This document shows, piece by piece, positions 1 through 15,835 of a stretch of DNA of 49,080 nt; the stretch's first letter is position 1; the number at the start of each line of letters is the position of its first letter. The translations under genes and the position numbers were made by a program. Origin of the DNA: Myxococcota bacterium (GTDB lineage Bacteria; Myxococcota_A; UBA9160; SMWR01); assembly GCA_039030075.1 (NCBI GenBank), contig JBCCEW010000036.1, positions 1-49,080 on the forward strand, written 5' to 3'. The notes beneath the pieces are model-generated. The model did not search any database. It saw only the letters and a list, made by a program, of their open reading frames with translations, and was not told the origin of the DNA.

Positions 1-642
1 CTCGGCGCGCCGCACGCGGCGACTCGAGATCCGCCAACTCACAGCACAGCCCAGCAGGCCGAGAACCAGACCGAGGATGATCCGCAGATCGCCGAAGTGG
101 AACCAAGGATCGGCGGGAAAGGCGATCGCCCGCTCGATCGCGGCCACCTTGAAGACGTGGACCTGCGACATTCGCGGGTTCGTCGCGAAGTCCATGAAGT
201 CACGGCGGCTGCGGTATCGAATGGATACGGTGTCCCCCCACTCGCGCAAGTCGCCAGCGTTCAGTAGATCCATCGTGCCGCCTGCCGCGAGCCCGAACTG
301 GACCGGGTGGGACGCCCTGGAGATGAGGGCGGGGGCGACGTAGTCGAGATAGTGGGCGAGGACCTCTTCGGTGGACTGCCCAGGCTCGACGTCCTCGACG
401 AGGAGCGGCTCATCGTACGCTTTGCCGATGTTGAGCATGATGAAGTCGTCGCCCGTGTCCTCTTCCATGAAGCGACGCATCGTCTCGACCAGAACCGGGT
501 CCGGCGGCTCCAGCTTCTCGGCGGCACGCAAGTACGCCTCGATCTCGTCGTCCCTCAGTGGTCCGTCGAATGACGTGTACCAGCCGAAGAACGCGAACCA
601 GATCGTCACAAGAACAAGCCAGGTCCAACGGGTCGCGGTCAT
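1..642 (-). CDS. Hypothetical two-helix membrane protein (partial, C-terminus off the left edge)
   Basis: The frame is open for 214 codons from an ATG at 642 to the window edge, so the stop lies outside. A GGGAGAGGTGG ribosome site sits just upstream of the ATG. Residues about 6-22 (rich in W, L, V, F) form one membrane helix or signal anchor. Residues about 186-203 form a second helix, followed by an Arg-rich tail. The roughly 160 residues between them are acidic and amphipathic and would lie on one side of the membrane, probably the periplasm. I do not recognise the family. Codon use is like its neighbours. No partner gene is visible because its downstream side is off the window. Confidence 0.72.
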   Translation of the reverse strand, partial: MTATRWTWLVLVTIWFAFFGWYTSFDGPLRDDEIEAYLRAAEKLEPPDPVLVETMRRFMEEDTGDDFIMLNIGKAYDEPLLVEDVEPGQSTEEVLAHYLDYVAPALISRASHPVQFGLAAGGTMDLLNAGDLREWGDTVSIRYRSRRDFMDFATNPRMSQVHVFKVAAIERAIAFPADPWFHFGDLRIILGLVLGLLGCAVSWRISSRRVRRAE

Positions 643-981
643 GCCACCTCTCCCGCCTGCGCGTCGGGCAGGCGACGGCAGAAAGCGCTCGAGCTCGACC
701 AGCTTCGAGCCTTGCCTTCCGATGCCGGCACCCGGGTATAATGGCAGTCCCTATGCCATAAGTCGAGGGAGCTTCCCATCTCCTCGCCGTTTTCGCTCTC
801 CTCTTTGGTAGGACCGCGCGTCGCCGAACCCCTCTTCGGACATGGCACCGATCATTCCCTACCTCGTCGCGGTAAGTCCGGCGTGAGAACTACGGACCAG
901 GGAGCCGTCAATTCTGTCGCTCGCTTGGGCCTTTGGTTGTAGAGAGGCCATCTCGCGGGAAGGAAATCCGACCGGCGCCGG

Positions 982-1088
982 GTTCCGTGGGACAACTGTG
1001 GGACAAAGGCCTACTCCGTGGACTTCCTTTGTTTCGCGAATTTGCGCTTCTTGGTCCCGGGTTCGATTCCCGCTGCCTCCACCAGTTT
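982..1088 (+). repeat. tmRNA/tRNA 3'-end-like repeat, copy 1
   Basis: Positions 1060-1084 read like the T-arm and acceptor end of a tRNA or tmRNA: GGTTCGATTCCCGC followed by TGCCTCCACCA with an encoded CCA, then a T run. No matching 5' acceptor strand (GGRGGCA) or cloverleaf lies in the preceding 80 bases, so this is a 3' fragment and not a working RNA gene. The whole 107-base block matches 5063-5219, with long shared words such as CCTACTC, GTTTCGC, TTGCGCTTCT and GCCTCCACCAGTTT. A 3' fragment of ssrA is what integrative elements leave at attachment sites; that origin is inference. Confidence 0.6.
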
Positions 1089-1153
1089 TTTCGGCTCCGC
1101 ATCCGCTTCGCGGATGCTGCGCGCCGAGCGGGCGCTGGCGGTGGCGCGCGGAA

Positions 1154-1203
1154 GCCCGAGGTGGCGCAGGCGTGGGAGCGGCTTGCTCGGTTGGGGTCGG
1201 TCG
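1154..1203 (+). repeat. Second dispersed repeat, copy A
   Basis: About 50 bases (GCCCGAGGTGGCGCAGG... GCGGCTTGCTCGGTTGGGG...TCGGTC) match 8357-8405 with only a handful of substitutions. Both copies lie outside genes in GC-rich spacers. It begins about 65 bases after the tmRNA-like repeat. Function unknown; it may be a mobile-element relic or a dispersed intergenic repeat. Confidence 0.55.
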
Positions 1204-1283
1204 TCGCGGCGCTGCCGCGCCAGCTCTCGAGCCGGGCGCGTCGGGGACGCTCGCCTGAGAGCAGGATGGACGGACGCTGAGCC

Positions 1284-1853
1284 CTACTCGGCGGGGGGTG
1301 CGCCCAGCTTGGGAGGCGCCGCGCGTTGCTCTTCCTCACCGCCTGTGTGTTTGCCGATGGTCCAACCGAGATCCGCGAGGTTCAGCTGCGCCCAATCGCG
1401 CGACTCGGTGTCGGTGACCGTCGCGAGTGTGTCGTTGTAGCGGTTCATGAAGCCGCCCAGCGCGATCACGCCAATCAGTGTCCGCGCTTCCGCATCCGAG
1501 AAGTGCTTGCGCACGTCCGCGTGGTGCCCGGGGGTCACCGCGCTGGGAGAGACCCCGGCGGCGAGACCGAGTCGGAGCGCCGCTCGCTCCCGATCGTCGA
1601 AGAGATCGGAGGTCTCGAATTCCCAGAGCGCCTGGATCTTCTCGAGCGGTACCCCCATCTGGTCGAGCCCGTAGGCGCCATGCGCCTGACAGTGTCGACA
1701 GCCCGAGGCGAGGCTGGAGATCGTGAAAGTCATCAGATTGAGCGCCGGCCCGGGTGGGCTGGCCGCGATCATCACCTGAAGCTCCTTCAGCTTGTCGTAC
1801 ATCGCGGGCCAGCTGGGAAGATCCCAGTTCTGTCGGTCCTGGTAGTCGGTCAT
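1284..1853 (-). CDS. AhpD-like/carboxymuconolactone decarboxylase-family protein
   Basis: A 189-residue protein of the AhpD-like all-helical fold. The signature is Cys52-x-x-Cys55-x-x-His58 (GCRHCQAHG), which in AhpD and related peroxidase-type members forms a thiol relay that reduces peroxides or their partner peroxiredoxin. The start at 1853 is preferred over an in-frame codon at 1916 because GGAGG lies 8 bases before it and the longer N-terminus is low complexity. The C-terminus is a charged, Pro-rich tail. It is divergent from the TetR gene at 2021, with two palindromes between them, so it is a likely target of that regulator. The physiological substrate is not evident. Confidence 0.85.
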   Translation of the reverse strand: MTDYQDRQNWDLPSWPAMYDKLKELQVMIAASPPGPALNLMTFTISSLASGCRHCQAHGAYGLDQMGVPLEKIQALWEFETSDLFDDRERAALRLGLAAGVSPSAVTPGHHADVRKHFSDAEARTLIGVIALGGFMNRYNDTLATVTDTESRDWAQLNLADLGWTIGKHTGGEEEQRAAPPKLGAPPAE

Positions 1854-1964
1854 CGGCGGTTCCTCCGGTCGCGGGTCGCGACAAGGGCATTCCTGGTGCT
1901 CTCTCCTGCGCTGCAACCCGCCTCGAGACAGGTGAGCGCCATCGGGAGCATCTTCTCAAAAAAT

Positions 1965-1978
1965 TTGACTATAGTCAA
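1965..1978. promoter_or_regulatory. Perfect 14-bp palindrome, probable TetR operator
   Basis: TTGACTATAGTCAA is a perfect inverted repeat in an AT-rich island between divergent genes. Its half-site TGACT recurs at 1999-2010, centred 33 bp away (about three helical turns). Together they suit a TetR dimer acting on the gene at 2021 and the AhpD-like gene at 1853. Confidence 0.65.
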
Positions 1979-1998
1979 TTTTGGTATTGCACTATTTC

Positions 1999-2010
1999 TG
2001 ACTCTAGTCA
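1999..2010. promoter_or_regulatory. Second TGACT-AGTCA operator half-pair
   Basis: TGACTCTAGTCA pairs at 10 of 12 positions and repeats the half-site of the palindrome at 1965-1978. It ends 10 bases before the TetR start, consistent with autorepression. Confidence 0.55.
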
Positions 2011-2020
2011 TAATGGCGAT

Positions 2021-2653
2021 ATGGCCACGGAGAACACGAGCGAGCGGGGCATGTCGCGAGTCGAGCGCCGACGGGCTTCCACCCGGGCGCGGATCGTCGA
2101 GGCAGCCGAACGACTGATGCGGGACCGCGGGGTGGAGGCGGTGACCATCCAGGACATCACCGAGGCCGCCGACGTCGGGCACGGCACCTTCTACCTCCAC
2201 TTCAAGACGAAGGCCGACGTGCTGCAGCCGGTGATCGCGCACCTGTCGGAACAGGTGCACGCGCAGGTCGACCGAGCTGCGCGCGGGGCGGAGGATCCTG
2301 CGCTTCGCATGGCTTTGGGCTTTCGCATCTTGTTGCGAGCCATCAGCGAAGACCCGCTCTGGAGCTGGTACGCCCACTCGGGCAGGTCGTTCAGTGAGCT
2401 GATCGCGGGCATGGGGACGCCGCCTCTCGACGACGTGCGCCGCGGGCTGGAGAGCGGCCGATACGTTGTCGCCGATCTGTCCACCGCGTGGAGCTTCATC
2501 GACGGCGCCTTGATCGGAGTGATCACGTCGCTCGGCGCGGGCATGAACGTCGACACCGTCGCAGAAACCACCGTGGAGTTGGTTCTGCGGGCGCTTGGCA
2601 TCCCTGCAGACGAAGCGGCGCAGATCGCGCGCGAACCGTTGGAGCTTCACTAG
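2021..2653 (+). CDS. TetR/AcrR-family transcriptional regulator
   Basis: A 210-residue one-component repressor. The N-terminal helix-turn-helix occupies about residues 20-66 (TRARIVEAAERL... ITEAADVGHGTFYLHFKTK), with the typical Y-x-HF recognition end. The C-terminal ligand-binding half is divergent and gives no inducer. The frame is open far upstream, but the ATG at 2021 is chosen because it follows the AT-rich operator region; ATG 2051 is an alternative. It is divergent from the AhpD-like gene and precedes the flavin monooxygenase operon by 75 bases, so it probably senses that pathway's substrate. Confidence 0.9.
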   Translation: MATENTSERGMSRVERRRASTRARIVEAAERLMRDRGVEAVTIQDITEAADVGHGTFYLHFKTKADVLQPVIAHLSEQVHAQVDRAARGAEDPALRMALGFRILLRAISEDPLWSWYAHSGRSFSELIAGMGTPPLDDVRRGLESGRYVVADLSTAWSFIDGALIGVITSLGAGMNVDTVAETTVELVLRALGIPADEAAQIAREPLELH

Positions 2654-2728
2654 ACACCTGCGACCGAAGGGCTCGATCGCGGACCGACCCCTCAATCAAG
2701 ACAAGATGCGACCTCCAAGGAGACCCAC

Positions 2729-3904
2729 ATGTCGAACGCACCCCTCGAACCCGCCGCCCTGATCGAAGCTGCCGAGAAGCTCGTACCGCTCCTGCGCGAG
2801 AAGGCGCGGGCGGCCGAGGTCGCCCGTCGCCCGCTCGACGAGGTCATCGATGCGATTCGAGACAGCGGTCTCTTCTCCCTGATGGTTCCGCGGTGTTATG
2901 GCGGGCACGAAGCCGACGTCGACACCTTCTTCGAGGTCACGCTCGCGCTATCGCGTGCGGACGCTTCGATGGGCTGGCTCGTTGCGTTCTACCTGGAGCA
3001 TTCCTTCTGGTTCTGTGGCTTCCCCGACGAGTTCCAGAAGGAGCTCTTCGCCGATCGTGCCTACGTCCTTGCTCCCGCATCGCTCAACCTGACGGGTGGC
3101 TCCGCCAAGCAGGTCGAGGGTGGCTACCGCCTGAGCGGCCAGTGGCAGTGGGGAACGGGTGTCGTCCATGCGGACTGGATCATGGTGGGCGCGCTGATGA
3201 CCGACGATGAGGGCAACCTGAAACCCCTCTTCTTCGCGTTGCCTCGCGAAGAGGTGGAGACCATCGACACCTGGCATATGGCCGGCATGTGCTCGACCGG
3301 TTCCTATGACATCAAGATCGACGATGTGTTCGTGCCGAGTGCGCGTACGGTCGGGCTCTTCGATCTGACGGATGGCACGGCCACGAGTCGGCTCCACGAT
3401 GGGCCGCTCTACCGAACGCCGCTGATGCCCATCCTTGGGTTCGCGTCGGCGTTGTCCGCCCTCGGTGGTGCGCAGGGGGCGCTCGACGAGTACTGGACGC
3501 AAACCAAGGCCAAGATCGCCGCGAAACAGGCTCGCGCGGGCGGCGCCGTCAAGGACGAGGGCAAGCCCTCCGTCGTCGCCAGCGCAGCACTCGAGGTCGA
3601 GGCTGCCGAGCTCCTTTTGCGGGACGTGCTCCGCGACGTCATGGACCAGCGCAACACCGCCTCACGAGAAACGCGCAACAGCTGGCTCACCCGCATGGCC
3701 CACGCGGTCTTCATGTGCCGCAGCGCCGTTCAGGACATCGTTGCGGTGACGGGCGCGAGCGGGGGTCGACTGGACAGTCCGATCCAGCGCGCCCTGCGCG
3801 ACATCTCCATCGGCTCGAACCACGTGATCTTCGATCGCGAGGCCCGCTATGCCGACTATGGCCGCACGCACCTCGACCAACCGATCCAGACCCTGATGGT
3901 GTAG
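2729..3904 (+). CDS. Flavin-dependent monooxygenase, acyl-CoA dehydrogenase fold (HsaA/HpaH-like)
   Basis: A 391-residue protein with the acyl-CoA dehydrogenase fold: N-terminal helices, a central beta domain (about 120-210) and a C-terminal four-helix bundle. Sequence such as the GLFSLMVPRCYGG segment and the STGSYDIKIDDVFVP segment is typical of the oxygenase component of two-component flavin monooxygenases (HsaA, HpaH, DszC type). These use reduced flavin from a separate reductase to hydroxylate aromatic or steroid-derived phenols. A flavin reductase is encoded two genes downstream at 4483, which supports this reading over a true acyl-CoA dehydrogenase. AAGGAGA precedes the ATG. It is the first gene of a three-gene operon with gaps of 3 and -4 bases. 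Confidence 0.85.
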   Translation: MSNAPLEPAALIEAAEKLVPLLREKARAAEVARRPLDEVIDAIRDSGLFSLMVPRCYGGHEADVDTFFEVTLALSRADASMGWLVAFYLEHSFWFCGFPDEFQKELFADRAYVLAPASLNLTGGSAKQVEGGYRLSGQWQWGTGVVHADWIMVGALMTDDEGNLKPLFFALPREEVETIDTWHMAGMCSTGSYDIKIDDVFVPSARTVGLFDLTDGTATSRLHDGPLYRTPLMPILGFASALSALGGAQGALDEYWTQTKAKIAAKQARAGGAVKDEGKPSVVASAALEVEAAELLLRDVLRDVMDQRNTASRETRNSWLTRMAHAVFMCRSAVQDIVAVTGASGGRLDSPIQRALRDISIGSNHVIFDREARYADYGRTHLDQPIQTLMV

Positions 3905-3907
3905 TCG

Positions 3908-4486
3908 ATGACGACATCTCGCGTTCCTCTCCTGTCGAGCGAAGAAGCCAAGCGAGCCGCCGCTGAAGTCGAGCTCTTCGAACTCAAGGCGAACTTCTCG
4001 ATCTATCGCGTGCTGCTGCGTCAACCCCTGGTCGCGAAGCGACTCAGCGACCTGACCGATGTCCTCGTGGGAGCGTCGCACATCGATGCACGGCTTCGGG
4101 AACTGCTCATCATGCGCCTCGGTTGGGCGAATCGCGGCGTCTACGAGTGGTCGCAGCACTGGAAGATCGCACTGCTCCACGATGGCATCGAGAAGAGTGA
4201 CCTGCTCGCCATCCGGGACTGGGAAGTGCACGACCACTGGTCTCCGCGGGATCGCGCCGCCTTTCGCGCTACGGACGAAACGCTCGAGCACGGTGTCCTC
4301 TCGAAAGAGACCTGGAGCGAAGTGGCGCAGCATTTCCCGACTCATGAGGAACGGATCGAGCTCGTCACGATCATCTCCTGCTGGAAGATGCTCTCCGACA
4401 TCATGAAGACCCTCGAGGTGCCCCTCGACGAAGGCGTCGAGCCCTGGCTGCCGGACGGGCTCGAACCTCCGGGGCCGCAGCTGTGA
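3908..4486 (+). CDS. Carboxymuconolactone decarboxylase-family protein
   Basis: A 192-residue helical protein. It carries the CMD-family core with Glu80 and His84 (YEWSQHWKIA), the residues that line the active site in gamma-carboxymuconolactone decarboxylase. Unlike the AhpD-like gene at 1284 it lacks the Cys-x-x-Cys pair, so a peroxidase role is unlikely. It starts 3 bases after the monooxygenase stop and ends in a GTGA overlap with the flavin reductase, so all three are translated together. This points to a lyase or isomerase step on the hydroxylated product. The exact substrate is unknown. Confidence 0.82.
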   Translation: MTTSRVPLLSSEEAKRAAAEVELFELKANFSIYRVLLRQPLVAKRLSDLTDVLVGASHIDARLRELLIMRLGWANRGVYEWSQHWKIALLHDGIEKSDLLAIRDWEVHDHWSPRDRAAFRATDETLEHGVLSKETWSEVAQHFPTHEERIELVTIISCWKMLSDIMKTLEVPLDEGVEPWLPDGLEPPGPQL

Positions 4487-4986
4487 TCAGGGCCAGCACG
4501 CTCGAGCCGGTCGTGGATCCTGCGGCGCTGCGGCGCACGTTTGCGTGCTTTCCGAGTGGCGTCGCAGCGGTGTGCGCGATCGCGCCGCAGGGCCCGGTCG
4601 GGCTCCTGGTCAGCTCCTTCACTTCGGTTTCTCTGGAGCCGCCGCTGGCGTCGATCTGCATCATGAACGACTCGAGCCGCTGGTCGCAGTTGCGCAGTGC
4701 GGCGCGGCTGGGCCTGAGCTTCCTCGCCGATGGTCAGCAGCGGGTCTGCGAGCAGCTCTCGGCATCGCCGGAGCACGGGTTCGCTGGGCTGGAGATCAGC
4801 ACCACTTCGGAGGGTGCGGTGCTCCTGCGCGACGCGACGGCGTGGCTGGATTGCTCGCTTCACCAGGAGGTCGACGCCGGCGACCACACCCTCGTGCTGC
4901 TGCGGATCGAAGCGCTTCGCGCCCGTCCCGCACTGGCTCCGCTGGTCTTCCACAATTCGCAGTTCCATCGGCTGGCGTCCCTGTGA
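4483..4986 (+). CDS. Flavin reductase (HpaC/HsaB-like), reductase component of the monooxygenase
   Basis: A 167-residue FMN-binding split-barrel protein. The N-terminal pattern of an Arg-x-Thr-Phe-Ala opening, a G-V-A-A-V strand and an SSFTSVSLEPPLASICI flavin-binding segment is typical of the HpaC/HsaB/DIM6 NADH:flavin reductases. It would supply reduced flavin to the oxygenase encoded at 2729. It starts at a GTG that overlaps the previous stop (GTGA), which shows translational coupling. The order oxygenase, CMD protein, reductase forms one complete two-component monooxygenase module. Confidence 0.87.
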   Translation: MIRASTLEPVVDPAALRRTFACFPSGVAAVCAIAPQGPVGLLVSSFTSVSLEPPLASICIMNDSSRWSQLRSAARLGLSFLADGQQRVCEQLSASPEHGFAGLEISTTSEGAVLLRDATAWLDCSLHQEVDAGDHTLVLLRIEALRARPALAPLVFHNSQFHRLASL

Positions 4987-5062
4987 CCCAGCGCTGGCGC
5001 TCCGAGTTCCGAGGCGTACTGGCGATGGCGCTTCGCACGGGCGGCCCCGGCAGCGGCGGTGT

Positions 5063-5219
5063 GTTCCGCGGGACCACCCCGGGACAGACACCTACTCGGT
5101 AGACCTCTCTCGTTTCGCTGGGTTGCGCTTCTAGGGCGCGGGTTGCTCTTCCCGGCTCGGCCCAAGCTGGCGTCTTCGGCCTGCGGCCGAAGAACGATTC
5201 CTGCCGCCTCCACCAGTTT
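5063..5219 (+). repeat. tmRNA/tRNA 3'-end-like repeat, copy 2 (with a hairpin insertion)
   Basis: This block aligns with 982-1088 along its length and again ends in GATTCC-GC-GCCTCCACCAGTTT. Between the GGGTT of the T-arm and GATTCC it has an extra stretch of about 50 bases, including a perfect hairpin at 5173-5193 (TCTTCGGCC, loop TGC, GGCCGAAGA). The insertion destroys any T-arm, so it is not a functional RNA. The spacing and sequence suggest a degraded copy of an element that ended at an ssrA- or tRNA-type attachment site. Confidence 0.6.
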
Positions 5220-5272
5220 CTCGAGCAACCCCGCGAAATCAGCCCCACGGCTTGGAAGCGAGGGGCCTCCGT

Positions 5273-5692
5273 TCATCGTTGCGCGAGTGTCTGCTCCATC
5301 AATCTGATTCCGTATCGATACATGCTCTCCGCGGTCGCTACGGCCTCGGCCTCGCCGATCCCTTTCGGCTCGAACTCGCCTGACCAGCTGAGGCTGCAGC
5401 GGCCCTGGCCTAGTTCCTCTACTGCCATCGTCGCCCGATAGCTCACGAAGGGAAGGGTTGAACGGACGATGGAGTACGAATAGGTCCGGTGTCCCTCGGC
5501 TTCCAAGCGATCGACGACTTCGCGGCCGCCTGGAAGGGTGAGAGTTCGTAGGGCCCCGAGACCTTCGCCGTCGGACGTGCAGCTTCCCGCTCCAGGGCCG
5601 GCCCACTTCTCCATGTCTCCGAAATCGCCGATCAGCTCCCAGAGTGTGTCGGCGGAGACGCTGAACTCGTGCGTGATGCTTGCTTCGGCCAC
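5273..5692 (-). CDS. SRPBCC-family (polyketide cyclase/START-like) protein
   Basis: A 139-residue helix-grip protein. It opens with a typical SRPBCC strand (ASITHEFSVSADTLWELIGDFGDMEKW) and ends in the long amphipathic helix that closes the hydrophobic pocket. Such proteins bind or transform hydrophobic small molecules; the ligand cannot be read here. The GTG at 5692 is preferred because GAGGGGAG lies upstream; a TTG at 5743 would add 17 low-complexity residues. It is divergent from the TetR gene at 5811 with a short AT-rich spacer between. Confidence 0.8.
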   Translation of the reverse strand: MAEASITHEFSVSADTLWELIGDFGDMEKWAGPGAGSCTSDGEGLGALRTLTLPGGREVVDRLEAEGHRTYSYSIVRSTLPFVSYRATMAVEELGQGRCSLSWSGEFEPKGIGEAEAVATAESMYRYGIRLMEQTLAQR

Positions 5693-5747
5693 GGCGGACT
5701 CCCCTCGGTTCGGCGCAGCCGGGGAAGAGCCCGGCCCGGCCAATAGA

Positions 5748-5782
5748 TGAACATCGTTTTTTAATTAGATGAAGGGTGTTCA
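5748..5782. promoter_or_regulatory. Inverted repeat TGAACA-N23-TGTTCA between divergent genes
   Basis: An AT-rich spacer (TTTTTTAATTAGAT) is flanked by TGAACA (5748-5753) and TGTTCA (5777-5782). It lies between the SRPBCC gene and the TetR gene and could be the operator. The half-sites are short, so this is tentative. Confidence 0.4.
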
Positions 5783-5810
5783 CTTGTCAATGGCGCCCTA
5801 GAATCGCCCG

Positions 5811-6512
5811 ATGCCGAAGCCGCAGACACCCTCAGGGAAGCGCCGTTCGGAGAAGGAAAGGGCGTGGCAGCGCGCGCGTCAGCCTCACCAGAAGGCGGAG
5901 CGTCGCGAGGCCATCTTGGCGGCGGCCACGGAGCTGCTCGACGAAGCCGGAATCGATGGCGCGACACTTTCCGCCATCACGCGTCGAGCCGGGCTGTCCA
6001 AAGGCAACCTCTATCGATACTTCGAGAGCAGAGAAGCCGTATTGATGGCTCTCACCCTTGGTGAGGTCGAGAGGTGGTCTCGCGCGCTCGTGGAACGGCT
6101 CGAACCCATCGCCGATCCAGGAGACGTGGAGGCCGTTGCCGACGTGTTCTCACGAACGACGGCAGCGAACCCGCGCCTTTGCGTTCTCTTCTCGGCGCTT
6201 ACCTCTGTACTCGAGAGAAACGTGTCTGCGGAGGCGGTGATCGCATTCAAGCGCACGATTCCGCGGCTCCTGCTTGCTCCTTCAACCGCAGTACGCGACG
6301 CACTTCCTGGACTGAGCGCATCTCAAGCGCGTTCGTTCGTTCTGTATTTCGCGCTGTTCGTCGCGGGAACATGGCCTGCCGCCAATCCTGAGCCCGCGGT
6401 CGCGAAGTTGCTTTCGCGCAAGGGCTTCGAGTCACTCCGAGTCGACTTCGAGCGCACCAACTATGAGCATGCTCGCGCGCTGCTCGACGGACTGTTGGCC
6501 AGGCGCCGCTAA
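5811..6512 (+). CDS. TetR/AcrR-family transcriptional regulator
   Basis: A 233-residue regulator. An unusually basic 30-residue leader precedes the helix-turn-helix (about 31-78; AERREAILAAATELLDEAG and ITRRAGLSKGNLYRYFESRE). The C-terminal part resembles the TetR_C domain of regulators with long helices, including an FVLYFALFVAGTWPAANPEP segment. It is divergent from the SRPBCC gene and is the likely controller of that gene. The ligand is unknown. Confidence 0.9.
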   Translation: MPKPQTPSGKRRSEKERAWQRARQPHQKAERREAILAAATELLDEAGIDGATLSAITRRAGLSKGNLYRYFESREAVLMALTLGEVERWSRALVERLEPIADPGDVEAVADVFSRTTAANPRLCVLFSALTSVLERNVSAEAVIAFKRTIPRLLLAPSTAVRDALPGLSASQARSFVLYFALFVAGTWPAANPEPAVAKLLSRKGFESLRVDFERTNYEHARALLDGLLARRR

Positions 6513-6745
6513 GGGGACGGGAGGCTATCGCGAAGCGGCGTGTCCTTGGTCCGGCGCGAGGAAGGTAGAGACATCAGGCTTCGCCCCGAGGGTCGGGGGG
6601 CGAATCCCTCCCGGCGTGCCACTGAAGTCAAGTGGTCGGCGATTCGCGCATGCTGACCATCAGGTATCTGACGTGATCATCACGATCGAGAACCCACACG
6701 ATTGCCTACTGCCCGCTCATCTCTTGCCCCGCGTCGATTCGGCCT

Positions 6746-7255
6746 ATGATCAAGCGTCAACTCGTTCAATCGGTGTGTGAAGAAGTGACACAGATTCCGC
6801 TGAACCCGAACTTCAAGGAAGACCTCGAGGCCTTCGTGCTCCAGATGCCGATCGTCAGGTTCATTCAGCTGACGTTCGTGACGGTGAAGCACGGAATGGT
6901 AGAGATCTCGATTCCCTACCGAGACGAACTCTCGTTCACTGCGGGGTCATTTCAGGCGGGCCCGATCGGTATGTTGATGGACATCGCCGCCTGCGGCGCC
7001 GTCGGAACGACGCTCCCTGCTGGTTGGGCCTTCTCCACGATTGATTTCACGACCAAGATCGTTGCGCCTGCAACCGGCGAACGGTTTCTTGCGCGCGGGC
7101 ACGTGGTGTCCTCGGGCAAGACCGTGTCGGTCGGCGAAGCCGACGTATTCGCGGTGAGGGAGGGGCGAGAGACGTTGTGCGCGACGGGGTTGGTTACGAC
7201 CAGGAACTTCGAAGTGACTCCGTCCCCGACACCGCCAGACGCTCTGGGAACATGA
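6746..7255 (+). CDS. PaaI-like hotdog-fold thioesterase
   Basis: A 169-residue single hotdog domain. The pattern AGSFQAGPIGMLMDIAACGAVG matches the central helix of PaaI/YbgC-type acyl-CoA thioesterases, and FSTIDFTTKIVAPATGERFLARG matches the following strands. These enzymes hydrolyse aryl- or acyl-CoA and relieve trapped CoA in aromatic breakdown. The gene stands alone between TetR (6512) and a convergent gene at 7296. The acidic residue in the central helix that usually activates water is present (Asp in LMDIA). Confidence 0.82.
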   Translation: MIKRQLVQSVCEEVTQIPLNPNFKEDLEAFVLQMPIVRFIQLTFVTVKHGMVEISIPYRDELSFTAGSFQAGPIGMLMDIAACGAVGTTLPAGWAFSTIDFTTKIVAPATGERFLARGHVVSSGKTVSVGEADVFAVREGRETLCATGLVTTRNFEVTPSPTPPDALGT

Positions 7256-7295
7256 TCCGCCCAAAGCGGCATTGATGCTGGCGTGACTCAGGAGG

Positions 7296-7775
7296 TCACA
7301 ATTCTGCCTGCTTGAGAAGTTCATCCACCTCTTTCAGCCAAGCGGCGGGAAGAAACTCTCTCGCGGTTTCTATGTCGTAGTAATCGTTCCAGTAGGAGAT
7401 CTTTCCATCCGTGATCTTGTGGACGGTGGTGATCCCGATGGTCCCAACCTCTCCAGTTTCGAAGCGCCATTCTTCATCTCGCTCTGTCATGACGCAATGG
7501 TCTTGAGCCACAACGGTCTTCACATCCGCACGAACTCCGCTAACGCCAACCCATGCGAGTATGCCCAGTTTCTTCGCAATGCCTTCGGGTCCGATTGCGT
7601 CCCAAGCATGCTTCTTGGGTTCGTCTCGGTACAGCGCATCCGGTGTGAACAGGCTGCGAAGTGTTTCCATGTCGTGTCCAAGGGCTTCGAAGAAACACTC
7701 GATCAACGCGACATTCTCTCGTGCTAAGCCAGCAGCGCTCTCTTTGGCAATATCGAAGGGTGTCTTGTCGGTCAT
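7296..7775 (-). CDS. NTF2-like protein of the limonene-1,2-epoxide hydrolase type
   Basis: A 159-residue cone-shaped NTF2-like protein. The pattern ENVALIECFFEALGHDMETLRSLFTPDALYRDEP, followed by a charged Asp/Arg/Asp strand set (VRADVKTVVAQ, VMTERDEEW, TVHKITDGKISYWNDYYD), resembles limonene-1,2-epoxide hydrolase and SnoaL-like enzymes, which use an Asp-Arg-Asp centre. It could hydrate an epoxide produced by one of the nearby oxygenases. That link is inference. It stands alone on the minus strand. Confidence 0.75.
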   Translation of the reverse strand: MTDKTPFDIAKESAAGLARENVALIECFFEALGHDMETLRSLFTPDALYRDEPKKHAWDAIGPEGIAKKLGILAWVGVSGVRADVKTVVAQDHCVMTERDEEWRFETGEVGTIGITTVHKITDGKISYWNDYYDIETAREFLPAAWLKEVDELLKQAEL

Positions 7776-7928
7776 CGCGTCTCTCTCGTTCTCTGCTTGC
7801 TATCCGATTGTCCCGTCGCCATCGGGGTAGTGTGATCGTTCATTCGCGCCTTGATTCGGCGAGCGTGCGATCACCGCGGCGAACTCTCCGAAGCGGCCGG
7901 GCTCCCGGAGGCCCGACCGTCCGGCCCG

Positions 7929-8291
7929 TCAGCGGCCGTCGTCTCGTCGCGGGTCCTCGCTCATCGATTCGAGCGACTGACCTGGCGTGTAGTGGATGAA
8001 CTTCGCGCCCGACGGCGCGCCCGGCTTGTGCCAGACCCCTCGCGGCACGACGAAGGAGGTTCCTGGCTTTGCCGTGTAGAGCTGCGGCGGGGCATCGCCC
8101 TCTAGGAGCGTGATCTCGACCATGCCCTCGAGGACGAAGAAGAACTCGTCCGTATCGGGATGCATCTCCCAGCCCGGGTGGACCCCGGTGATGTCGCAGG
8201 TGCCGAAGCTCTTGCCATTGAAGGGCGAGAACTCGAGGAAGGTGCCCTCGGGGTGCTTACCCAGCAGGTCGAGGACGTTGGTGATGTCCAT
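7929..8291 (-). CDS. Single-domain cupin protein (3-hydroxyanthranilate dioxygenase-like small cupin)
   Basis: A 120-residue cupin. Motif 1 has His44 and Glu49 (MHPDTDEFFFVLEG) and motif 2 has His88 (VPRGVWHKP), which together could bind a metal. The domain is a bare beta-barrel with a short Arg/Asp-rich tail. It may be a dioxygenase, an isomerase or a small binding protein. Its stop lies about 150 bases from the neighbouring NTF2-like gene on the same strand, so they may be co-transcribed. Confidence 0.78.
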   Translation of the reverse strand: MDITNVLDLLGKHPEGTFLEFSPFNGKSFGTCDITGVHPGWEMHPDTDEFFFVLEGMVEITLLEGDAPPQLYTAKPGTSFVVPRGVWHKPGAPSGAKFIHYTPGQSLESMSEDPRRDDGR

Positions 8292-8356
8292 GGGGCCCCT
8301 CTATTGGACGGGAGCCGGAAGGCTACCCCAACCAGGGCGGGTCATTGGCGGGGGTG

Positions 8357-8405
8357 GCCCGAGGCGGCGCAGGCTCAGGAGCGGCTTGCTCGATTGGAGT
8401 CGGTC
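8357..8405 (+). repeat. Second dispersed repeat, copy B
   Basis: Matches 1154-1203 over about 49 bases, including the unbroken word GGAGCGGCTTGCTCG. It lies in the spacer between the cupin gene start and the end of the dioxygenase gene. Similarity to copy A stops sharply after GTCGGTC. Confidence 0.55.
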
Positions 8406-8488
8406 ACCGTTCCGGCTTCCGTCTGACGAGCCTTCGCTGGAACGCCGCACGCGTCACCTCGCCGGCCGCGCGGATGGGCCGGGCGGGA

Positions 8489-9373
8489 TCACGCGTTCGC
8501 GGTACAGCCCTCCGTCTCGACGTCCCCGGCGATTCGGGAGTGCAACATCACGCGCGCTTTGGTGTAGTCCCAGGGGCAGGCGCGGTGCATCAGGCACCGG
8601 TTGTCCCAGACGACGACGTCGCCCGCCTGCCAGCGGTGGGTGTAGACGCGCGACGCGTCGCTCACGGCGAAATCGATCAAGGCCGTGAGGAATGCGTCGG
8701 AGGCTTCGTCGTCCCATCCGGGGATGGCGTAGGCATGGCGGCCGACGGCAAGGGCCGGGATGCCGGTCTCCGGGTGGATCTTGACCAGGGGCCGAAGCGG
8801 TGCGCTCTCCACGTCGAGGCCGTAGCCCACATATTCGCTGTCCGCGCTCTCCTCCACCGCCTCTCCGAGAGCGATCTGGCTACGCGCCAGCGAGTGGTGG
8901 GCGGACAGACCCGCGATCTGTCGCTGGCGATCCTCGTCGAGCGCGGCGTAGGCCGCGCGCATGTCGGCGAAGGCGGTATCGCCCTGTTCGCGGGGCACGA
9001 CCTGCGCACTGAAGACGGCACCCTTGGCTTGGACGGGCATGTACGTGTTGTCCTGATGCCAGTGCATGTTGCCGCGGATGATCTTCATCATGTCGTCGTC
9101 GGGAGCATCGCGCAGGGAACCGTCCTGCTTGACGTTGCTGAGCAGCGCGGATTCGAGACCTTCGATCAGGTCGCCAAACCGGCGAGCGAAAGCAACCTGC
9201 TGATCGCGCGAGAGATGCTGCGCGGGAAACACGAGCAGCCCGTAGTCCAGCCAGGCCCGGTAGAGATCGGCGAAGGTCGCGTCGTCGATCTCGGACAGGC
9301 GGACCTCAGTCACCCGTGCGCCGAACGTCATTTCCAGCGGCTCGAGATTCATGGCGGTCACGCCACTGGTCAT
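8489..9373 (-). CDS. TauD/TfdA-family Fe(II)/2-oxoglutarate dioxygenase
   Basis: A 294-residue double-stranded beta-helix oxygenase. The iron facial triad is visible as His106-x-Asp108 (MHWHQDN) and His263 (CLMHRACPWD), and Arg280 (LHSRI) would bind the carboxylate of 2-oxoglutarate. Members oxidise taurine, 2,4-D, alkyl sulfates and similar substrates with release of succinate. The ATG at 9373 has GGAG 8 bases upstream and is preferred; ATG 9352 is possible and the ATG at 9418 adds a poor leader. All cofactor residues are intact. The substrate is unknown. Confidence 0.9.
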   Translation of the reverse strand: MTSGVTAMNLEPLEMTFGARVTEVRLSEIDDATFADLYRAWLDYGLLVFPAQHLSRDQQVAFARRFGDLIEGLESALLSNVKQDGSLRDAPDDDMMKIIRGNMHWHQDNTYMPVQAKGAVFSAQVVPREQGDTAFADMRAAYAALDEDRQRQIAGLSAHHSLARSQIALGEAVEESADSEYVGYGLDVESAPLRPLVKIHPETGIPALAVGRHAYAIPGWDDEASDAFLTALIDFAVSDASRVYTHRWQAGDVVVWDNRCLMHRACPWDYTKARVMLHSRIAGDVETEGCTANA

Positions 9374-9458
9374 GACGGAGTCTCCCCACGCGGAGGACGC
9401 GTCGCCGAACGCCGGCATGTCGAACGGAAAGGGGCCATCCGGAGCGGCATCTCCCGAT

Positions 9459-10286
9459 TCACGAGACCTGCACCACCAGCGCGGTCGCGTTGTCCTTTCC
9501 GCCGTTCTGGTTGGCGGCGTCGACGAGCCATGCCACGGCGGCGTGTGCGTCCGGCGCCCGGGTCAGGATCTCCCGGATCTCCTCGTCGCGCAGCATCTCG
9601 TAGATGCCGTCCGAGCAGAGCAGGTAGGTGTCCGCGGCGCGGATCTCCACGGGAACCACCTCCACCTGGACTCTCGGATCGACGCCGACGGCGCGGATGA
9701 GCACGCTGCGGCGGGGGTGCACGCGGGCTTCCTCCTCGGTGATCTCGCCGTTGCGAAGCAGCTGTGCGGCGAGGGAATGATCCTCGGTGAGGGCAGCCAG
9801 CGATCCCTGTCGGAGCCGGTAGAGACGGCTGTCGCCCACGTGTGCGACGCATGCGGGCCCCTCGGCGGACAGCAGGAGGGCGACCACCGTCGTTCCCATT
9901 CCCATCAGCCTGGGCGACGCCGCGGCGCGCTCGAAGATCTCTCGGTTGGCGCGCTTGACCGCAGCGCTGAGGCGGGCGGAGGCAGCGGCGCCGCCGACCC
10001 GTCCCATGTCGCCGAGCGTCCCGACGACCATCGCGCTCGCCACCTCGCCGCTGCGGTGTCCCCCCAGCCCGTCTGCGACCACCAGCAGGATCTCGCCGCG
10101 GGCCGGGTCGTCGAAGCGGTCGAAGGCGTCCTCGTTGGTCATCCGGACCCGACCGGCGTGGCTCGTCCCGGCGATGGAGAGCGCCCACGGCCCCCATACT
10201 TCGCGTCCGTCGTCATCGGTGTGTCGGGGCGACAAGCCGCACTGCCTCGCTCTCGTGATCGCGCGCGCGTTCGCGATCCGCCGCAC
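9459..10286 (-). CDS. PP2C-type serine/threonine protein phosphatase (Stp1/PrpC-like)
   Basis: A PPM phosphatase of about 250-275 residues with all core motifs: TNEDA, VVADGLGGHRSGE, GTTVV, AHVGDSRLYRL, LLCSDGIYEML and GKDNATALVV. The Asp residues in these motifs bind the two Mn/Mg ions. It removes phosphate from proteins phosphorylated by Hanks-type kinases. No kinase is encoded in this window. The first 30 residues are low complexity and the GTG at 10286 is uncertain; a later start is possible because the domain begins near WALSIAGTSHAG. It is followed by the TauD gene on the same strand, about 85 bases apart, without an obvious functional link. Confidence 0.88.
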   Translation of the reverse strand: MRRIANARAITRARQCGLSPRHTDDDGREVWGPWALSIAGTSHAGRVRMTNEDAFDRFDDPARGEILLVVADGLGGHRSGEVASAMVVGTLGDMGRVGGAAASARLSAAVKRANREIFERAAASPRLMGMGTTVVALLLSAEGPACVAHVGDSRLYRLRQGSLAALTEDHSLAAQLLRNGEITEEEARVHPRRSVLIRAVGVDPRVQVEVVPVEIRAADTYLLCSDGIYEMLRDEEIREILTRAPDAHAAVAWLVDAANQNGGKDNATALVVQVS

Positions 10287-15172: not shown

Positions 15173-15835
15173 CTAGTCGAGTCCTGCGACTACATCGTTC
15201 AGCGAACGCTCGACGCTGCCGCGCAGGACGGGAACGCAGTCGGGCGGGAACTCCTGGACGATCTCGACGCCCGCCTCGAGGGCGGTGTCGAGGAAACGGG
15301 GAAGCGCCTTCATGGCCCCGGTCGGGATGTCGTGGACGACCATCAGCGTCCAATCCTGGCCGGCGGTCTGCTCGAGCGCGACCTCGGGCCAGCGGTCGGG
15401 TGCCTCCCAGTCTCGGGGAACGCTGTTCCAGAGCACCACCGAGAACGCGCCGGCGCACAGGTAGTCCAGAGCCGGTCGGCTGAGCAGGTTGGTTCCGAGG
15501 ATGCCTCCACCGCCGTACGGACGGAACCAGCGCTCGGGCTCGCTCAAGTCTCCGAGTGCGTCCTGCGCCTTGCCGATCTCGTCGCGCGCGACGTTCGCGT
15601 CGTCCGTCGTGCCCAGCTCGATGGTGTGGGTCTGCGTATGGTTTCCGAGCCAATGGCCCTCGGAGCGCGCGCGTTCCATCATGTCGCGTCGTTCGGGGAC
15701 CGTTGCGTCCTTTCCGCAGACGAAGAAGCTCGCGCGGAGATCACGGTCGCGAAGGGCGTCCAGGACGCCGGGCGTGACATCCGGAAACGGGCCGTTGTCG
15801 AAGCTGAGGGTGAGGCGCTTGCCCGACAGATCCAT
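15173..15835 (-). CDS. NodB-type polysaccharide deacetylase-family protein
   Basis: A 220-residue NodB-fold protein. Motif 1 reads SFD13-N14-G-P: the catalytic-base Asp is present but the metal-binding second Asp is Asn. Motif 2 has the His pair His66 and His70 (NHTQTH). The family normally removes N- or O-acetyl groups from polysaccharides with a Zn or Co ion. Without a signal peptide this one is cytoplasmic, and it may act on a small molecule. AGGAG precedes the ATG at 15835; a longer open frame upstream has no ribosome site. The VOC gene ends 5 bases before it, so the two are co-transcribed. Confidence 0.78.
   Translation of the reverse strand: MDLSGKRLTLSFDNGPFPDVTPGVLDALRDRDLRASFFVCGKDATVPERRDMMERARSEGHWLGNHTQTHTIELGTTDDANVARDEIGKAQDALGDLSEPERWFRPYGGGGILGTNLLSRPALDYLCAGAFSVVLWNSVPRDWEAPDRWPEVALEQTAGQDWTLMVVHDIPTGAMKALPRFLDTALEAGVEIVQEFPPDCVPVLRGSVERSLNDVVAGLD

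Follow-up and report, generated by a model that had tools for sequence, protein, structure and literature searches.

Two partial tmRNA 3′ ends lie 4 kb apart in the window (the whole 49,080-nucleotide stretch analysed here, contig C36 of a 5.76-Mb Myxococcota genome), co-oriented on the + strand at positions 973–1084 and 5054–5215. Very probably, both are attR-type (right-hand) scars of tyrosine-integrase islands that target the 3′ end of ssrA, with the gene block between them being the segment closed by the second copy and most likely its cargo. We favour this attachment-site reading because the two copies share their element-side ends, arm-type repeats are phased ahead of displaced ends, such ends are co-oriented downstream of ssrA in relatives, and integrases stand beside ssrA or a copy in some of those genomes.

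The initial annotation had placed the repeats at 982–1088 and 5063–5219; they are real, and their bounds have been slightly extended. The stretch common to both copies (973–1063 and 5054–5144) is 91 nt long, ungapped and identical at 67/91 positions (74%), and a further 25 nt agree at 92%. The homology that had been noted is genuine, but the claim of shared long words over 100 bases was overstated. When the window was scanned, the next-best match to this 91-nt stretch of copy 1 reached 44/91 on the + strand and 40/91 on the − strand.

Copy 1 consists of an element-side (P′-like) end (973–1058, +) and a displaced tmRNA 3′ end (1059–1084, +) that holds the T arm, the acceptor strand and CCA, with one mismatch to ssrA. 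Within the element-side end lies a direct-repeat pair of the 9-nt sequence GTGGGACAA (987–995 and 998–1006, +), with a spacing of 11 and a start 72 nt upstream of the core. Copy 2 has a homologous element-side end (5054–5139, +), in which an imperfect repeat pair (∼5068–5087) sits at the place matching the pair of copy 1. Both copies are tmRNA 3′-end-like, as had been described, but copy 2 is not one run. The first five bases of its core (GGGTT) are at 5140–5144 (+); the T loop is then split by a 50-nt stretch with a hairpin and no assigned strand (5145–5194), and the rest of the displaced end follows at 5195–5215 (+). A search of the genome for a second copy of the 50-nt stretch found none. 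Because its core is split, copy 2 is probably fixed in place. Neither copy has a 5′ half, as first reported: ARAGORN found no tRNA or tmRNA gene in the window, no Rfam family was found at gathering score in this sequence, and the tmRNA model scored only 17.8 bits (gathering 47) at 1000–1084.

The full ssrA gene (C34:1490–1856, − strand; tag ADDNYAIAA) lies on a different contig from the window. Searching the genome for the 23-nt tmRNA 3′ end with up to three mismatches gave four sites, namely the ssrA gene, both copies in the window and a genuine tRNA-Lys, and a reversed-pattern control gave 0 matches. At this threshold there is no further displaced tmRNA 3′ end in the genome beyond the window copies, so the repeat is not one that recurs in many unrelated intergenic places here. 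Weak matches on C16, C13, C3 and C4 were considered as further copies and rejected as real tRNAs.

The match of the window copies to ssrA is confined to the tmRNA part. The ∼90 nt upstream of the cores are common to both copies, align poorly to ssrA and match displaced ends in relatives, which supports the original suggestion of a site-specific integration footprint. Seven such ends in five relatives (three in G008 and one each in G051, G044, G057 and G024) aligned with this upstream sequence, and behind each, except in G057, there is a tmRNA 3′ end with at most one mismatch.

To place these copies among their counterparts, we used a pattern search for the tmRNA 3′ end in 60 genomes of the order, the present genome included. 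This gave 120 matches, counted by hand, in 50 of the 60 genomes. The classified set comprised 119 of these (a tRNA-Lys was left out) together with window copy 2, and the rules called 63 displaced ends, 41 ssrA genes, 14 tRNAs and 2 others. A strict displaced class of 44 copies in 23/60 genomes was obtained by dropping 19 of the 63, including window copy 2. Among the dropped copies, some (G022:C19, G025:C62, G040:C181, G045:C115:51230, G047:C47 and G049:C97) proved on reading to be tRNA-Ala-type or other tRNA-like ends or variant ssrA. Where displaced copies shared a contig with ssrA, 16/16 were downstream of it and on the same strand. Seven contigs, C36 among them, have at least two copies and no ssrA, and on each the copies are co-oriented. 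Copies farther from ssrA were more decayed in 10/12 non-tied neighbours (8/10 minus two doubtful ends), a weak age gradient that rests on mismatch counts read by eye. Displaced ends produced by ssrA-targeting islands are a known kind of event and appear to be common in this bacterial group. In a wider search of the phylum, the exact tmRNA end was mostly unmatched outside the order. The window-type end pattern was found in three stretches of genome_contigs and in none of viral_contigs, giving no link to phage.

Arm-type repeats on the element side are a feature of tyrosine integrases. We scored exact repeat pairs of at least 7 nt, with a spacing of 9–13, at −125 to −45 of the core. Such a pair was present in 26/43 strict displaced copies and absent from 17/43, the 44th copy being too short. 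The corresponding frequencies were 2/40 at −325 to −245, 6/42 at +200 to +280, 121/4300 in mononucleotide shuffles and 0/41 in ssrA genes; the downstream control exceeds the shuffle rate. The spacing was 11 in 19 pairs and 10 in seven. Of the spacing-11 pairs, 18/19 have start positions from −79 to −69, and about ten motifs are represented; the seven spacing-10 pairs start farther up, at −113 to −103. Related genomes share repeat motifs, so the 26 pairs are not independent events. Repeat pairs that vary in sequence but keep their position and spacing make a usable signature for such scars in fragmented genomes.

In relatives, tyrosine integrases immediately follow ssrA or a copy; they are encoded on the opposite strand and their C-terminus faces the core. 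Long integrase frames adjoin ssrA in G025, G019, G035 and G048 and a displaced copy in G025, and broken or short pieces were found in G004, G018, G032, G043, G014, G044, G022 and G024; most displaced copies have no integrase beside them. With both strands searched, all 20 rows of an integrase HMM were on the strand opposite the tmRNA. Some of these matches were among the 12 frames used to build the HMM, which makes the rows for G025 C1/C62, G004 and G043 circular, although the loci came first from Pfam; one of its frames, C32, was a sub-threshold Pfam match and looks doubtful. Ends with GGGACA arms, the end family of the window, twice precede another tRNA-like 3′ end in G025:C31, and both adjoin broken integrases of one clade. 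The present genome has eight tyrosine-recombinase (PF00589) matches, none of them on C36 or C34, and no integrase was found in the 1.5 kb examined downstream of ssrA on C34.

An island of this kind would bring its own ssrA 3′ end, so that insertion restores ssrA, and the old 3′ end would be displaced to the far side with the island's arm-type repeats ahead of it. Two islands with related ends, and hence related integrases, would then have left the two scars. The island to the left of copy 1 would be cut by the contig end, and the one closed by copy 2 would be the block, which would have come as cargo and then lost its integrase or been carried by that of a neighbour. Loss after insertion is the simplest account, given the graded decay of integrases in relatives; movement of the block in trans is possible. 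The position of ssrA, upstream of the window, and the integrase that acted on the window copies are both inferred.

Among known systems, the layout is close to the tyrosine-integrase islands catalogued by Islander (PMC4383910). There, tmRNA is the most enriched target, and 125 tandems of at least two islands and four of at least three are counted in 2168 genomes; the tmRNA target, the displaced 3′ fragment lying downstream of the gene in the same orientation (here in relatives) and the existence of tandems are all alike. A full tDNA and displaced 3′ fragments are present (ssrA on C34; 1059–1084 and 5140–5215), although here ssrA and the copies are on different contigs, and the element-side repeats comprise the 9-nt pair of copy 1 and the imperfect pair of copy 2. 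No integrase (PF00589) matched on C36, which covers the element left of copy 1 only in part. Islander discards candidates that lack an integrase or measure less than 2 kb. Screens that require an integrase would miss segments of the present type.

The block between the scars encodes an AhpD/peroxidase-related-like protein (1284–1853, −), which has no Pfam match and scores far below the NCBIfam cut-off, followed by a TetR-family regulator (2021–2653, +; PF00440, PF21306), a flavin monooxygenase of the acyl-CoA-dehydrogenase fold (2729–3904, +; PF08028), a carboxymuconolactone decarboxylase (CMD) family protein (3908–4486, +; PF02627) and a flavin reductase (4483–4986, +; PF01613). The monooxygenase and reductase are nearest to HsaA (NF045629, E 6.7e-64) and HsaB (NF045630), both below the curated NCBIfam cut-offs, and we make no claim to exact substrates. 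The Pfam search found no integrase within the block. Its GC content, 0.651 compared with 0.675 ± 0.012 for 3.7-kb pieces of the rest, is not clearly foreign.

The scars could be real and the block nonetheless resident or older island DNA left between them by deletions rather than a one-unit arrival, and this is a serious possibility that we place somewhat short of an even balance. A displaced 3′ end closes just the element to its left; since each repeat alone is the right-hand end of such an element, one insertion, two events and a deletion are equally possible. Copy 1 is directly followed by a 108-nt dispersed repeat (1085–1192, +) with copies elsewhere in the genome, and a further scar, a displaced 3′ end of tRNA-Arg(tcg) (6566–6621, +), lies 1.4 kb beyond copy 2, which implies repeated remodelling of the region. 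In other genomes, the relatives of the block genes are dispersed among different contigs and do not lie together. The nearest monooxygenases found, in G045, G049 and G044 (65–67% amino-acid identity), have no other block gene beside them within the 4–12 kb examined; in G045, a weaker CMD match is ∼35 kb distant and a TetR match is on a separate contig. Against residence, the TetR, monooxygenase, CMD and reductase genes form a compact cluster between the scars, and the block is resident DNA in none of the relatives: among the 60 genomes none has the whole block, so that its presence throughout the relatives without flanking repeats does not hold. Comparison of window DNA 1–9500 with the same 60 genomes revealed both flanks in no relative, and no empty site. 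The initial proposal that the operon arrived as one unit is plausible, and likely, but unproven: the block has no integrase, its gene relatives are scattered, ssrA is on another contig and this set gave no empty site.

Another reading sees a CIME-like cassette in the segment, mobilised in trans through its two attachment sites by the integrase of another island; we consider this unlikely. The concept of CIMEs and accretion, as presented by McMurdie et al. (PMC3146451), describes a segment that is flanked on both sides by attachment sites and carries no recombination genes, and the segment here has two such sites with no recombination genes between them. Several intervals of 1–5 kb bounded by tmRNA 3′ ends and without a recognised integrase were seen in relatives, though not formally counted. 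The same paper also describes tandem ssrA islands in Dehalococcoides with a serine recombinase, 15/31 of which have no integration module and are proposed to be cis-mobilizable. However, the 50 nt that split the core of copy 2 make it unlikely that both attachment sites function with mobilisation in trans, the graded integrase decay makes simple loss sufficient, and an excised form was not seen.

The Dehalococcoides islands resemble the present arrangement in having tandem segments downstream of ssrA, ssrA 3′ direct repeats as bounds and catabolic cargo (PMC3146451). They differ in the enzyme, which is a DsiB/DsiA serine recombinase there, compared with tyrosine integrases and paired arm-type repeats here. 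A serine-integrase (DsiB/Ccr-like) origin for the window copies is very improbable despite the same target and similar tandem layout. The serine-recombinase family PF07508 had matches in 5/21 genomes searched, and in one of these five, G050, a match lies upstream of a displaced copy on the same contig (C62); PF07508 was absent from the other 16/21, with 0 matches in this genome, and phased arm repeats and tyrosine integrases occur at these sites.

Equally improbable is a role of the repeats as functional RNA elements, or their origin by local duplication of the ssrA end: copy 1 retains a foldable acceptor/T-arm part, but fold energies of the two repeats are ordinary compared with shuffles (z −1.33 and −0.02), the shared upstream sequence is not derived from ssrA, and the phased repeat pairs and the integrases of relatives would be left unaccounted for.

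With integration at ssrA as the preferred reading, the locus offers a route by which a catabolic gene block entered an uncultured lineage, and segments stacked at ssrA, poor in integrases, are found widely across the order. Within the partial literature covered, we recognised no published treatment of ssrA arrays in this bacterial group. Tycheposons are alike in being tRNA-bounded islands with displaced tRNA ends. More speculatively, and with a low likelihood, the region downstream of ssrA might serve across the order as a cassette store, holding short segments with one or a few genes, most of them integrase-free, that each terminate in an arm-repeat pair plus a tmRNA 3′ end and are shuffled in trans by varied tyrosine integrases. 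This would be integron-like, with the difference that an integron uses IntI and attC sites, whereas the sites here are tmRNA 3′ ends.

Some array segments in relatives have recurrent content. The same two-gene module (185–188 and 123–142 aa) adjoins a displaced tmRNA end at L073 (G045:C115) and L074 (G044:C51), in two families, and in G044 it occupies the whole of a 1.06-kb segment; from the sequence, we guess that it may be a toxin–antitoxin pair. A similar gene pair (126–137 and 249–250 aa) is present in ssrA-array segments at L062 (G013:C173) and L073, again in two families.

The dispersed repeat that follows copy 1 has five other places in the genome (C5:116665, C2:247633, C7:32718, C39:42641 and C19:1954), all intergenic and ∼100–145 nt long, and a partial match at 8357–8405 of the window. 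It stands twice behind a frame with a Gly/Met-rich tail, presumably GroEL-like, and once behind tRNA-Pro. A similar sequence (75%) occurs in the same genus (G001:C39), and the fold energy is ordinary compared with shuffles.

Other tRNA genes show comparable scars. Displaced tRNA-Ala-type 3′ ends were seen at G025:C62:20380, G040:C181:4386 and G022:C19:4428, one of them adjoining a long integrase frame, and tRNA-Ala appears to be targeted likewise in this order. In the present genome, a displaced tRNA-Arg(tcg) 3′ end also lies at C34:1311–1336 (−), ∼150 nt downstream of the intact ssrA; like the one beyond copy 2 in the window, it follows a tmRNA end. Contig C7 allows an internal comparison, with the full tRNA-Arg(tcg) at 15203–15279 and displaced ends at 6941 and 3310. 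These two ends have 157 nt in common (87%), element-side sequence included, and integrases adjoin the tRNA-Arg gene and one of the displaced ends.
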